Assembly (NCBI RefSeq): GCF_025602895.1
Contig: NW_026516203.1
Coordinates: 62,001 to 126,000 of the forward strand
DNA: 64,000 bases
Reading direction: 5' to 3'
DNA from: Polychytrium aggregatum
Taxonomy: Eukaryota; Chytridiomycota; Chytridiomycetes; Polychytriales
In this document: piece by piece, positions 24,356-28,523 of the stretch
Position numbering within the stretch: the first letter of the stretch is position 1
Layout: each line of letters opens with the position of its first letter
Position numbers and translations under genes: made by a program
The notes under the pieces: model-generated
What the model was told of the DNA's origin: nothing
The model's database searches: none
Seen by the model: only the letters and a program-made list of their open reading frames with translations

Positions 24356-24866
24356 GGAGGCGAGAGAGGGCCGTGGTTTGATGAATGGGCAGATGGATTG
24401 GCCGAGGCGAGCCCAGACTGGGGAGGATTGTCGAGGCTTTGTGGGTGCGATGCGCCGCTGCTAGCTGAGAGCCGATGGCCAAAGAATATGGGCAACCGAG
24501 GATGAATGCGAGGGATCGGCTATGGACTGAAGTTGGCGATGGACGATGGACGGTGGACGGTGGACGATGAATCAGAGGGGAGATGGAAGAGTGGATGTGG
24601 GGTGAAGAGCCGGATTGCGGGTCTCAGGAGACAGGGGCGGCACAGAGACACAGTCGGCGGCAGTAACAAACGTGCAGCACGCCCGCCCCACACAGACTGC
24701 AGGTGGCGCTGCGTGGCGTCGCGCACGGCGCCCAAACAGGAAAGACCGCGCGGGCGCGCCGGGCACAGAGCGCGTCGTCATGCGCTGCGCACGTGGCTGG
24801 CCAGCCACCGGCCGGCTCTTTCGGTCCAGCACCCCGTGCCATGTCGTCGTGTACACTTTATTCAGA
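24356..24866. other. Upstream region of the F-box gene, up to the transposon edge
   Basis: Contains (GATGGAC/GGTGGAC)n near 24536-24570 and otherwise GC-rich sequence. No gene. Its right end (about 24846-24866) is host DNA flanking the Fanzor transposon. If the TnpB/Fanzor model holds, its minus-strand reading would be the guide segment. Confidence 0.5.
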
Positions 24867-24881
24867 AAAAAACGGGACACC
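24867..24881 (+). repeat. Left terminal inverted repeat
   Basis: aaaaaacgggacacc, 15 of 15 identical to the reverse complement of 28456-28470. The Fanzor stop codon is only 71 bp inside it. Confidence 0.85.
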
Positions 24882-24951
24882 ACAGCCGTTTCCATGAACA
24901 TGTAGTATGTGCTGTGCTTGCGTCAAGCAAAGCCACAAGAAATAAAACAGA
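24882..24951 (-). other. Fanzor 3' UTR, candidate guide-RNA scaffold region
   Basis: The short stretch between the Fanzor stop (24952) and the element end. In TnpB and Fanzor systems the guide RNA (omega-RNA/fRNA) derives from the transposon end 3' of the nuclease gene and overlaps its 3' coding end, with the guide reading out into flanking DNA. By position this segment plus the last part of the gene is the candidate. I did not identify a fold. Confidence 0.35.
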
Positions 24952-27324
24952 TCACTTTGGCAGCCTCCGAGTGAAGACCGCCGGTCGCTCTCCGATCTCC
25001 ACAATCGACCTGCATACTGTGATCATGTTGCGCGCCGCATTGACGTCGCGATTCCACACTGTCCGGCAGCTGGGATTCTTGCAGCTCCTGACAAAGTGGG
25101 AATTCGCAACACTGGGCGCATCGAGTCCTTCCAACCGAACTGACTCCAGGCACTTGGAGCACACTTGCGAGGTGTTGAACTCGTTCGTCGAGGCCACCTT
25201 GACGCTTCCGTGATGGTGATTGGGACGGCGTCGGTGGTGCTCGAACTGCTCAAAGTACTGAGCAAATCGCTGCCTCCGAGGGCTGGATGCATAGCCCTTG
25301 CCTTGCCGCCATGAGGCATTGCCAAAGGCGATCACCACATCGGTCCGTATCGGGGCGTGCTTCAGGACGGCCTTGCACATCCTGTCGACGGCCACTTGGC
25401 GCCTCTTGTGGCCCGTGAATCGATGGTGACGAGCCTTCTTGCCAAGGTGGAAGTCGAGCTGCACTCGCAGCTCCGGTCGCAGGACATGGGTGAGATGAGC
25501 CTTGAAAGCCTCCGAGGACGACACCTTGGGCGAGGGGGTGGTTGACATCCAGGTCTCGATGCTGAGTCGATACTTCATGGTGTTGTGCCACCTTGTGTTG
25601 GACGTATGGCCACACATGTGCTGGTAGTGACCATTGGAGAATGAGACCACCTCGTCTTGGTGGCCCGGTGCTTGGATGACCGCCGTGAAGATGGAGCCGA
25701 CTCCAGGATCGATGCCAATCCAAGTGGTCTTGTCGGGGTCTGGGTTGCCGATGTGGGCCTGGATGCGCTGCTCGGCAGTCGGAGGAGGCTCGGAGGTCTC
25801 GGTGCGATCGGTTCGACGCACAAACTTGACGAGGCCGATGGTGCATCCAATGCCATCGGTGCTGATCTCGTAGTTGAACAGCTTGTGATTGATATCCCGG
25901 TCACGGAAGAGGGAGCTACGCAGCTTGAAGCAACTGCGCCAGAGACGATCCTGGTTGTTGATGCCGTCCTCACCTTGTTCCTTGAGCTTGTCCCTGGTGA
26001 GGCCAAGGCGCTTCTTTGGACCCAGGAGCTCCCAGAGTGCGACGGTGTCAATCTTGACATACTTGGCCGTGGCAGTGCATAGAGGAACTATCGTGCACAC
26101 GGCCGGAGGAGTGTCCAGAGCGAGCTACTTGAGGGCCCAGTTGATCCTGGATGCCAGCTTGTTGATCTTGGACTTGGTGGTGCCGAGCTCAGACTTGGCC
26201 GTGGTGAACCTCTTGTCGTCGGAGGGAATGCCTTGGGTAGTGAGCTCGTCCAGCTTGGCCTGGCGCTGCAGCTCGGTGACTCGGAGGGCGGGCATGTCAC
26301 AGTCGATCCACTTGTGGACATTGTCGACCATCTTGTCTCGGGCGAGGATTCTCACATGGTGTGAGAGGCGGTGGAGGGCCCGGAAGCGGTCCTGGTCGTT
26401 GCTGTACCGAAACTCGTCCAGGACGTGGCCAAAGTCCGGGTAGAGGAACTCGAGATCGGCCTTGGGTGGAGTCTGCCCTGGTTTCTCGAAGAGCTCGAGA
26501 CAGGCCTCGATGGCTTCGTGCTTATGCTTGTTGGCTGGGAAGACGGCAGCGCAGAAGCGGCGAAGGAGTCGCCAGTAGGCCAGGTCGAGGTGGGTGGTGC
26601 AGTTGGTGGCATAGGCATTGACAGCCAGGGTGAGAAGCTGACTGTGAGCACCATCAGGCAGACGAGGGGCCGGAGGCAGGTCTGCATGTCGAGTGGTCTG
26701 GTAGTCGCGAAAGGAAGCGACCAGATGCTCGTTGTATTTCTCATTGTCCCCGGTCGGGGAGAGGGCACCGTCCTGGACGATCTTGAAGCATTGGCGGATG
26801 AAAGCAGGGGTGGACTTGGAGATGACGGGGATGGGAAGATCCTGCTCGATGCACCGGAGGATGTGCAGGTTGAGCAGCCTGGATGCCTCGAACTGGATCT
26901 GGGTCATGGCCTCGACGGTGGCCTGGATCTTGTCGCGGAGAGCGGGATTGAGACAACAGCCATCCATCGTCTGCTTGAAGCAGCTGAACTGAGGGGCGGA
27001 TGACCTTCCATCCACGAGTGGGACGACAGAGCTCTTGAGGGGCCGGTATTTGGGACATTTGCTAGTGTTGCTTCGCTCGTGATCGGTGCCATCGCACTGG
27101 CGACATCGCTTGCCGGTACTCGAGGAAGTGGATGGACCAGGCTCGGTGGGATCGACATCCATTGGATCTGCAGAAGCAGTGGTGGTGAGCGACGGAGCAA
27201 CAGAGGAACAAGCATGCGTGGGGTCAGAATACGAACCAGAGACAGGCTCCGACTGTGACTTGGCTTTCTTGGGCCTGGGTGGCCGAGGCTGGCCATCACC
27301 GGTACCCTTACGCTTCGGAGGCAT
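24952..27324 (-). pseudogene. Fanzor (eukaryotic TnpB-like) RNA-guided nuclease with one in-frame TAG
   Basis: One frame from ATG 27324 (MPPKRKGTGDG) to 24952, 790 codons, interrupted only by TAG at 26127-26125. N-terminal part: basic NLS-like PKRK and RPPRPKKAK, and a zinc knuckle C-RQ-C-x4-H-x7-C. A helical region of about 250 residues follows. After the TAG come the WED-like KIDTVALWELL, then RuvC-I TWIGIDPGVGSIF with the first catalytic Asp. The RuvC-II position reads VVIAFGNASW with no Glu. An alternative Glu sits in STNEFNTSQVCSKC, which runs into a CxxC...CxxxxC zinc finger (SCKNPSC), and RuvC-III is NRDVNAARNM with the last Asp. These are TnpB/Fanzor hallmarks; the family makes RNA-guided cuts. 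With the TAG the product stops before the nuclease, so this is a decaying copy unless the codon is read through. No GT-AG intron that restores the downstream frame is evident. Confidence 0.9.
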
Positions 27325-27570
27325 GGGGGCAGAGAATGCTGGATGCCTGCCAGTGGTACTGGTCAGAGCAGAGACTTTTTTATCGTACAATAGCGCGAAT
27401 GATCAGATCAAGGCGAGATGAGGGAAGAAAGCAGCAGGACGAAGGTGTGGCATTTATACCCGAGAGCAGGAGCCCGTCTGTGCGGGCTGGTTGGGGAAGT
27501 GACCCTGTTCAAAAATCGCCGAGAGGTTCAAGCCAGGGATGTGAACGTGAAAATGGCGGCGTGATTGGGG

Positions 27571-27632
27571 AGCTCAACCCCAAATTGGAGGAACTCAACC
27601 CCAAATCGGTGGGGACTCAATCCCAAAGAAGT
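27571..27632. repeat. Three 21-bp imperfect direct repeats at the transposase-Fanzor junction
   Basis: Units around actcaaccccaaatcgg at 27571, 27592 and 27613. They lie exactly where the transposase frame is cut off after its catalytic Glu motif, so they may mark the join between the two modules. Confidence 0.8.
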
Positions 27633-28399
27633 TCTCGATGGGATTGAAGTCGGGCGAGGCAGGTGGGGTGAAGATCACTGACCATCCTCGGCGCTCGATG
27701 CAGTCCAGGACAGCCATTGTCTCGTGCATGCTGACATTGTCCATCACAACCACAGAGTCGTCTGGGAAGCTCGCTCGCTCAAAGAACTCGACCATCGAGT
27801 GTGTCTTGAATGATGTGGGGATGTACATGCGATGCAGCACACCAGAGTGGTTGATTGCAAATGCAGCCGAGACAGACTTGTGTTTCATGTGATTGCGCTG
27901 GCGAAGCGGAGCACCCTTCGGTGAGTATCCGTAAAGAGGAAAAATGGATCTCCTGATCCCCGTCTCATCGACAAAAACGAATCGTCGTGGGTCGATGGAG
28001 CGGACCTGGTCCCTGAACTGTGCCACTCGCTCATCCAGTCGCTTGGACTTGTAGAGGTGTGTTGCTCTCTTGTGTGAGACCTGCTCGCTGGATGGCAGTG
28101 TGGCAGAGTGAGAGTGATACTTTCCTCTGGAGGATGGACTCGAGCTTGCATCGCAACACAGGACCAGTCTGGAACGGGTCCTGTTCAATCAGGGTGCGAA
28201 TGACTGGACATGCCTGCTCGAAGAAAGTGGATCTGCGAGCTGGGACTCTGGGTGGGTCATCCAGCTTGCATCCTCGGTGCCATCGATGGATGGTGCTCTT
28301 GGATACACTGAATATGGAGGCGACCTTACGCAGGCTATGGATGAGGGCGTAGCATCGCAATGCGGCGGTGCGAAAGTCGGATGTGTGGCGAATGGTCAT
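27595..28399 (-). pseudogene. Tc1/mariner-family DDE transposase remnant
   Basis: Starts at ATG 28399 (MTIRHTSDFR), 57 bp inside the right inverted repeat. The N-terminal half has a homeodomain-like HTH (LRKVASIFSVSKSTIHRW) and the linker region. The frame is then lost around 28070-28100. The second half, in another frame, carries the three catalytic motifs: FVFVDETG (Asp1), VVVMDNVSMH (Asp2) and PDFNPIENFF (Glu). The protein is truncated immediately after the Glu motif and runs into the 21-bp repeats. A frameshift plus the missing C-terminal about 30 residues make it inactive in cis. Movement of this copy would need a related transposase supplied in trans. Confidence 0.88.
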
Positions 28400-28455
28400 G
28401 GCCAGCGCGCGATAACATTGGGTAACAAAATATTCGATGAATGGTCAAAAACCCG

Positions 28456-28470
28456 GGTGTCCCGTTTTTT
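28456..28470 (-). repeat. Right terminal inverted repeat
   Basis: Reverse complement is aaaaaacgggacacc, identical to the left repeat over 15 bp. A TA follows at 28470-28471. The host gene stop codon begins at 28526. Confidence 0.85.
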
Positions 28471-28523
28471 ATTGGATCGCCCGTAAACACATACGGCCAT
28501 GATTCTCAGGCCGGCCATCGGAT

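Follow-up and report, generated by a model that had tools for sequence, protein, structure and literature searches.

Background

Fanzor1 genes within Mariner elements (PGv-1, PUl-1 and PUl-4) were reported by Bao and Jurka in 2013 (PMC3627910). Fanzor was established as an RNA-guided nuclease in a paper whose available text gives its biological role as unknown (PMC10432273). Here we describe a Fanzor1-bearing Tc1/mariner family in the chytrid Polychytrium aggregatum, represented in a 64,000-nucleotide stretch of contig NW_026516203.1 (assembly GCF_025602895.1, positions 62,001 to 126,000, forward strand), hereafter the window, to which all coordinates refer. At 24854-28483 the window contains a 3,630-bp Tc1/mariner (DD34E) element with TA target duplications at 24852-24853 and 28484-28485, in which the transposase and Fanzor genes both lie on the minus strand, transposase first. 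The family is a further case of the already described Fanzor1-in-Mariner elements; no description of it was found in the Fanzor literature searched, the coverage of which was partial.

Copies of the element in the genome

An earlier note on this DNA, based on the window alone, had proposed that a Fanzor and a Tc1/mariner transposase share one transposon bounded by perfect 15-bp inverted repeats. The repeats are present at 24867-24881 and 28456-28470, each arm occurring once in the window, but they are not the ends of the element, which lie 13 bp further out on each side. The boundaries of the window copy were set by reading the ends of other copies in the same genome assembly, and the element is delimited as 24854-28483 because the sequence common to the copies runs up to a TA on both sides. 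The terminal inverted repeats (TIRs; 24854-24881 at the Fanzor, or 3', end and 28456-28483 at the transposase, or 5', end) are about 28 bp long and imperfect, and the two ends are only partly similar; their inner 15 bp are the repeats first noted.

The assembly (64.7 Mb, 418 contigs, two haplotypes present in places) was searched with end patterns allowing up to 3 mismatches, with reversed patterns as controls. The Fanzor-side end gave 220 genomic matches and the transposase-side end 327, against 0 for the reversed controls; these are not counts of independent insertions because parts of the genome are represented by both haplotypes. A third related end, less common, occurs at 11 places. Among the best 40 of 1,241 candidates from a whole-element query, 26 (the query itself included) were matched over the full element by a single alignment and 14 by several, and the aligned pieces starting at the Fanzor end were 95-97% identical, the query itself (100%) apart. 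When the 100 Fanzor-side places listed were set against 41 of the 100 on the transposase side, at least 29 elements could be paired end to end. Of these, 4 are shorter than 1.2 kb, 13 measure 3.38-3.64 kb and 12 measure 3.71-3.79 kb. The window copy belongs to the middle size class and is some 105 bp short toward the 3' end of the transposase. Internally deleted copies retain both ends; short copies were read at seven distinct sites (L037, L039, L040, L049, L051, L053 and L061) and measure 307-308, 380 or about 1,110 bp.

The boundaries thus recur outside the window, as the unit proposed in the earlier note would have them: both ends were found at all 30 loci from the whole-element search and at 8 of 30 further loci located by the Fanzor-side end pattern, while the fetched stretch of the other 22 held no second end. 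Joint mobility, which that note had put forward as inference, is supported in the sense of joint spread, since at many unrelated TA sites the same pair of ends encloses both genes. Its description of the arrangement as rare is tempered by the 2013 report (PMC3627910), in which Fanzor1-bearing Mariner elements have TA duplications and some encode a transposase.

Transposase and Fanzor proteins

The transposase of an intact copy matches DDE_3 (E-value 2.2e-23) and the NCBIfam IS630 model (120 bits against a cut-off of 100). The spacing from the second D to the E, counted by eye, is 34 residues, hence DD34E; at the N-terminus HTH_23 reaches 18.7 bits, below the Pfam cut-off of 24.6. In the window's size class the transposase frame is exactly 268 codons long in 14 of the 30 copies for which a start codon was found, and intact frames of this class end in VESPPIWG or similar. 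With the TA duplication, the common TIRs and a DDE transposase, the family shows, as far as sequence features tell, the hallmarks of Tc1/mariner (IS630-Tc1-mariner) transposons.

The Fanzor of an intact copy matches PF07282, the Cas12f1/TnpB zinc-ribbon domain, above the Pfam cut-off (1.7e-9), and its NCBIfam and PHROGs matches cover mainly the TnpB zinc-ribbon region. The motifs DPG (residues 539-541) and NRD (758-760) are invariant in 21 intact copies; a RuvC DPG is given as a Fanzor signature in the available text of PMC10711439. When a profile of seven copies was compared with solved structures, the top of four matches with E-values up to 10 was SpuFz1 (8gkh), with a weak E-value of 0.091 and confined to the C-terminus. 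A search for viral relatives returned two pattern matches, none of them confirmed. By these features the protein would be a Fanzor1, and it is carried by a eukaryotic transposon other than IS607.

Both genes remain open in many copies. Fanzor is intact in 21 of the 31 full-length copies read. It has no stop at 50 of 57 scored places (one of them matched as two pieces in the same frame) and one stop at each of the other seven, and the transposase is without a stop over residues 1-306 or more at 32 of 112 scored places (131 rows, some places matching twice); these fractions lean high because the scored places are the best-scoring ones. Comparison of the two scored lists yields seven places at which both frames are uninterrupted, two of which (on C13 and C331) score identically and could represent one site on two haplotypes.

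A second Fanzor family lies in the transposase-side flank of L005 (positions 338-1075 of 1,497, in the Fanzor direction) and is 48% identical to the first over residues 546-790. Its end pattern occurs 360 times, mostly inside one larger repeat, the same flank recurring in the 40 flanks read.

An oriented TTA at target junctions

Flanks were counted as distinct when they differed at more than 4 of 20 bases, which reduced 100 transposase-side flanks to 83 and 62 Fanzor-side flanks to 47. All 83 distinct transposase-side junctions have TA, although 60 of the 100 flanks come from exact end-pattern matches in which TA, but not the preceding T, is part of the pattern; on the Fanzor side TA is found in 46 of 47, the exception being TG at L003. 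The base preceding the TA on the transposase side is T in 81 of 83 junctions (C at L039, G at L110), and one base further out there is a weak A/T preference (A 36, T 28, G 14, C 5). On the Fanzor side there is no preference beyond TA: read toward the element, T precedes it in 7 of 47. As 11.9% of NTA trinucleotides in the window are TTA, the latter count fits the background, whereas 81 of 83 has a binomial probability of about 3e-72. The deleted copies have TTA at six of their seven distinct sites, L039 with CTA being the exception.

An insertion in a 17-nt minisatellite (L017) tells on which side of the boundary this T belongs. For the repeat to stay in phase across this insertion, a single TA must have been duplicated and the T must have been present beforehand, so the T before the TA is pre-existing target; the possibility that it is part of the element was ruled out at this site, the one able to decide. 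Thus, the element duplicates TA, with an oriented TTA at the target. A fixed motif on the 5' flank and free sequence on the guide flank is the arrangement expected of TnpB-like retention. The bases beside the inserted elements appear to record the recognition preference of Fanzor, whose motif would lie near WTTA.

The end of the second Fanzor family was considered as a control for the TTA and proved unusable, being inside the larger repeat: its 40 flanks reduce to 10 distinct ones, 8 of them with T before TA. Some flanks also show what the element has inserted next to. At L016, L020, L029 and L037 the Fanzor-side flank abuts, at a shared TA, the apparent end of a related mariner element, and the neighbour at L029 includes a 38-residue stretch 82% identical to Fanzor. 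The Fanzor-side flank of L053 (contig C122) adjoins a tandem repeat of about 71 bp, with matches at successive 71-bp steps.

The 3' end and the search for empty sites

Fanzor1 guide-RNA scaffolds have been predicted to take in the TIR and the target-site duplication (TSD), according to the available text of PMC10711439. In the present family the 3' non-coding end is predicted to form a hairpin, with upstream sequence pairing to the TIR and to the U of the TSD. The candidate scaffold (omega-RNA/reRNA) in the window is 24852-24948 on the minus strand, with the host sequence below 24852 as the presumptive guide. Deleted copies at all seven distinct sites retain this end.

The genome was searched for empty sites with the joined flanks of 30 distinct sites, 29 of which gave listed matches (for three joined-flank queries, the best 40 of 160, the best 40 of 527 and 29 of 29 candidates were scored). 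No empty allele was found among the matches listed for these 30 sites in this genome; an unbroken empty-site match would presumably have ranked high. Of the 29 sites, 17 are complete in two contigs, one (L019) has its Fanzor flank in two, and eleven occur in one contig only. The two alleles are of equal element length at four of the 17 two-contig sites and differ at thirteen; at ten of these the difference exceeds 100 bp, as with alleles of 3,629 and 308 bp, 307 and 3,614 bp, or 1,110 and 3,735 bp.

A proposed role for Fanzor and its alternatives

We favour, as moderately probable, a division of labour in which the transposase moves the unit and Fanzor secures it through a guide RNA and TTA-adjacent cutting. 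The TIRs, TA duplications, copies and uninterrupted frames suggest cut-and-paste movement of the unit from one TA site to another by the transposase. The 3' end of the element would supply Fanzor with a guide RNA; judging from the architecture, its scaffold would comprise the last ~100 nt including the TIR and TA, and its guide the ~15 nt of host DNA that follow. The complex would cut the unoccupied site only, because only there does TTA directly precede the guide match. A cut in an empty sister or homologue would be repaired by copying the element back, so that excision would not eliminate it. In this way insertions that face TTA would have an advantage, which may account for the one-sided TTA observed at 81 of 83 junctions. 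A retention role for Fanzor is what we infer from this combination.

Several observations weigh against this interpretation. The TTA could be a preference of the transposase, and L039, beside CTA, occupies both haplotypes. Empty alleles are also expected to be absent if the insertions predate the split of the haplotypes. The predicted fold of the 3' end is not clearly better than that of shuffled sequences (z -0.44 for 80 nt and -1.24 for 97 nt), and the other end of the element does no worse than the candidate RNA, its two strands giving z -1.03 and 0.05. Over 39 distinct sequences no pair of the drawn structure is changed on both sides, and an RNAalifold consensus has 2 of 36 such pairs, which is essentially no covariation. 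The last 100 bp are hardly less variable between unrelated copies (3.7%) than the rest (median 4.6%). A single-sequence phmmer search detected no solved relative of Fanzor up to an E-value of 0.1. The ratio of nonsynonymous to synonymous polymorphism (pN/pS) of 0.32 for the 21 intact Fanzor copies counts in favour of the interpretation, as does the lack of stops at 50 of 57 scored Fanzor places, but the ratio leans low because the copies were chosen for being intact, and the scored places are the best-scoring ones. For the first 268 codons of the transposase pN/pS is 0.19 (14 copies, one allelic pair among them), with the same bias.

A more far-reaching version, which we regard as possible and advance tentatively, is that Fanzor is a built-in homing/retention module: the guide RNA of full and deleted copies alike would cut empty alleles by the TTA, drive insertions to both homologues and keep them there after excision. 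If so, this activity would have left its natural record in the one-sided TTA, the absence of empty alleles, the retention of both motif and guide-RNA end by deleted copies, and the unequal allelic elements.

Alternatively, Fanzor may be a mere passenger that spreads by lying between the ends, the TTA being selected in one orientation by a transposase with unequal ends. As transposase choice would have it, even the deleted, Fanzor-less copies have TTA at six of seven sites; the partial similarity of the two ends makes an oriented complex conceivable, and the weak A/T preference one base beyond the TTA fits as well. However, a TA target is palindromic, and models of mariner targeting are not known to give a preference bound to one end. 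In addition, the open Fanzor frames and their pN/pS of 0.32 are more than a neutral passenger needs, and SpuFz1 has the same layout with a motif that has been measured. We consider the passenger explanation rather unlikely, and place retention by Fanzor before it.

The allelic copies raise a separate question. Allelic flanks are about 0.1% divergent: apart from the L044/L045 flank, which has 26 mismatches in 1.4 kb, there are 22 mismatches over some 19 kb. Yet the interiors of six allelic pairs diverge by 0.4, 1.4, 3.0, 4.1, 4.1 and 4.5% (for two pairs across the entire element, for four across its last 1.5 kb), so that four of the six come close to random pairs; the median divergence of unrelated copies is 4.1% over the full length and 4.6% over the last 1.5 kb. 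For 195 sites compared in 29 copies, linkage is at the shuffled level beyond 30 bp, also for transversions and rare variants; decay of CpG as the cause of the lost linkage is unsupported, since transversions behave alike. Breaks made by Fanzor or the transposase and repaired from other copies, that is, fast element-specific gene conversion, might produce this pattern together with the length differences of more than 100 bp at 10 of the 17 two-contig sites. We judge this improbable. About 200 exchanging copies with ordinary tracts of a few hundred bases would already, by estimate, predict such short linkage, and mixing of repeat copies in the assembly could mimic part of the interior divergence. 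Exchange among the copies looks frequent, as general gene conversion or partly as an effect of assembly.

In the Fanzor-side flank of L044/L045 the haplotypes are nearly identical except for a tract of 100 bp, some 525-624 bp away from the element, where they diverge in sequence resembling a host gene; general short-tract conversion or an artefact of assembly may lie behind it. A tract of the same kind in such a flank suggests that conversion is not element-specific, and a conversion peculiar to Fanzor is weakened accordingly.

That the inverted repeats enclose the two genes by accident has a negligible chance of being true and was ruled out by the hundreds of ends and the 31 full-length copies read, which have the same boundaries at TA sites.

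The copy in the window

The window copy is a decayed, broken derivative, with a frameshifted transposase and a TAG in Fanzor. The transposase remnant (27595-28399, minus strand, ATG at 28399; DDE_3 at 3.5e-21) begins with a frame that stops after codon 122, and the DDE catalytic part lies in another frame (27595-28188). The Fanzor1 gene (24952-27324, minus strand; 790 codons plus stop) is interrupted at codon 400 by an in-frame TAG (26125-26127, minus strand) where 21 of 21 intact copies have glutamine, and its zinc-ribbon domain still lies above the Pfam cut-off for PF07282. On the transposase side the TA duplication is followed by the conserved T at 28486 (A on the plus strand), so that 28484-28486, read in the Fanzor direction, is TTA, the presumed target-adjacent motif.

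The stop at codon 400 is shared with L014 and L018, which are allelic to each other; as all three stop at one codon, the broken form may have been copied or converted.

Comparison with longer copies places the loss of about 105 bp at a scar at short imperfect repeats (27583-27617). In the shorter size class the region 27569-27617 contains imperfect short repeats, and reading-frame ends vary between copies, as though break repair had filled them in from nearby sequence.

Of the two neighbouring genes named in the earlier note, the F-box gene is borne out (PF12937), while for the supposed TUG-like gene no Pfam match of single reading frames was convincing. Scanning the window for Rfam families and tRNAs gave no match.

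Comparison with described Fanzor and TnpB systems

A single genome with two haplotypes combines transposase, Fanzor, candidate guide RNA, deleted derivatives and many insertion sites, and the family is unusually well suited to test what Fanzor is for. The retention reading predicts a recognition motif WTTA and, as a population signature, no lasting empty alleles.

According to the available text of PMC3627910, PGv-1, PUl-1 and PUl-4 share with the present family a Fanzor1, Mariner-type TIRs and TA duplications, and PGv-1 and PUl-1 also encode a Mariner-like transposase. PGv-1 was reported there as single-copy and virus-integrated, whereas the present family has hundreds of ends, uninterrupted copies and deleted derivatives. 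Beyond elements of the PGv-1 type, it offers two haplotypes, 83 distinct target junctions in one genome and the one-sided TTA.

Spu-1, the element of SpuFz1 in Spizellomyces punctatus, resembles the family in having a Fanzor1, inverted repeats of about 30 nt and ghost copies (PMC10432273), as well as putative TA duplications (PMC3627910). Its ghost elements keep the 3' end, as do the deleted copies described here (PMC10432273). The two differ in that Saito et al. (2023, PMC10432273, in the text available) found no transposase enclosed by the Spu-1 repeats, and sequence similarity between SpuFz1 and the present Fanzor was detected at the C-terminus only. In SpuFz1 a conserved CA before the 5' repeat plus the TA makes up the measured motif, CATA (PMC10432273), where the family described here has T plus TA. 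The measured motif of GtFz1 from Guillardia theta, 5'-TTAAN, starts with the same TTA (PMC10432273), but its fourth position is A, whereas in P. aggregatum no constraint is seen at the corresponding Fanzor-side base; from what is available of that report, the GtFz1 locus seems to be without inverted repeats and transposase. Fanzor1 motifs differ: that of PpFz1 is ATN in the published material available.

The TnpB nucleases of IS200/IS605 and IS607 offer a functional comparison: as far as the accessible parts of PMC10711439 and PMC10432273 describe them, the motif lies on one flank and the guide on the other, and cutting of the empty site aids persistence of the element. The transposases of those insertion sequences differ from the one found here, and the retention role is that of TnpB, which Fanzor in this family would share by analogy.

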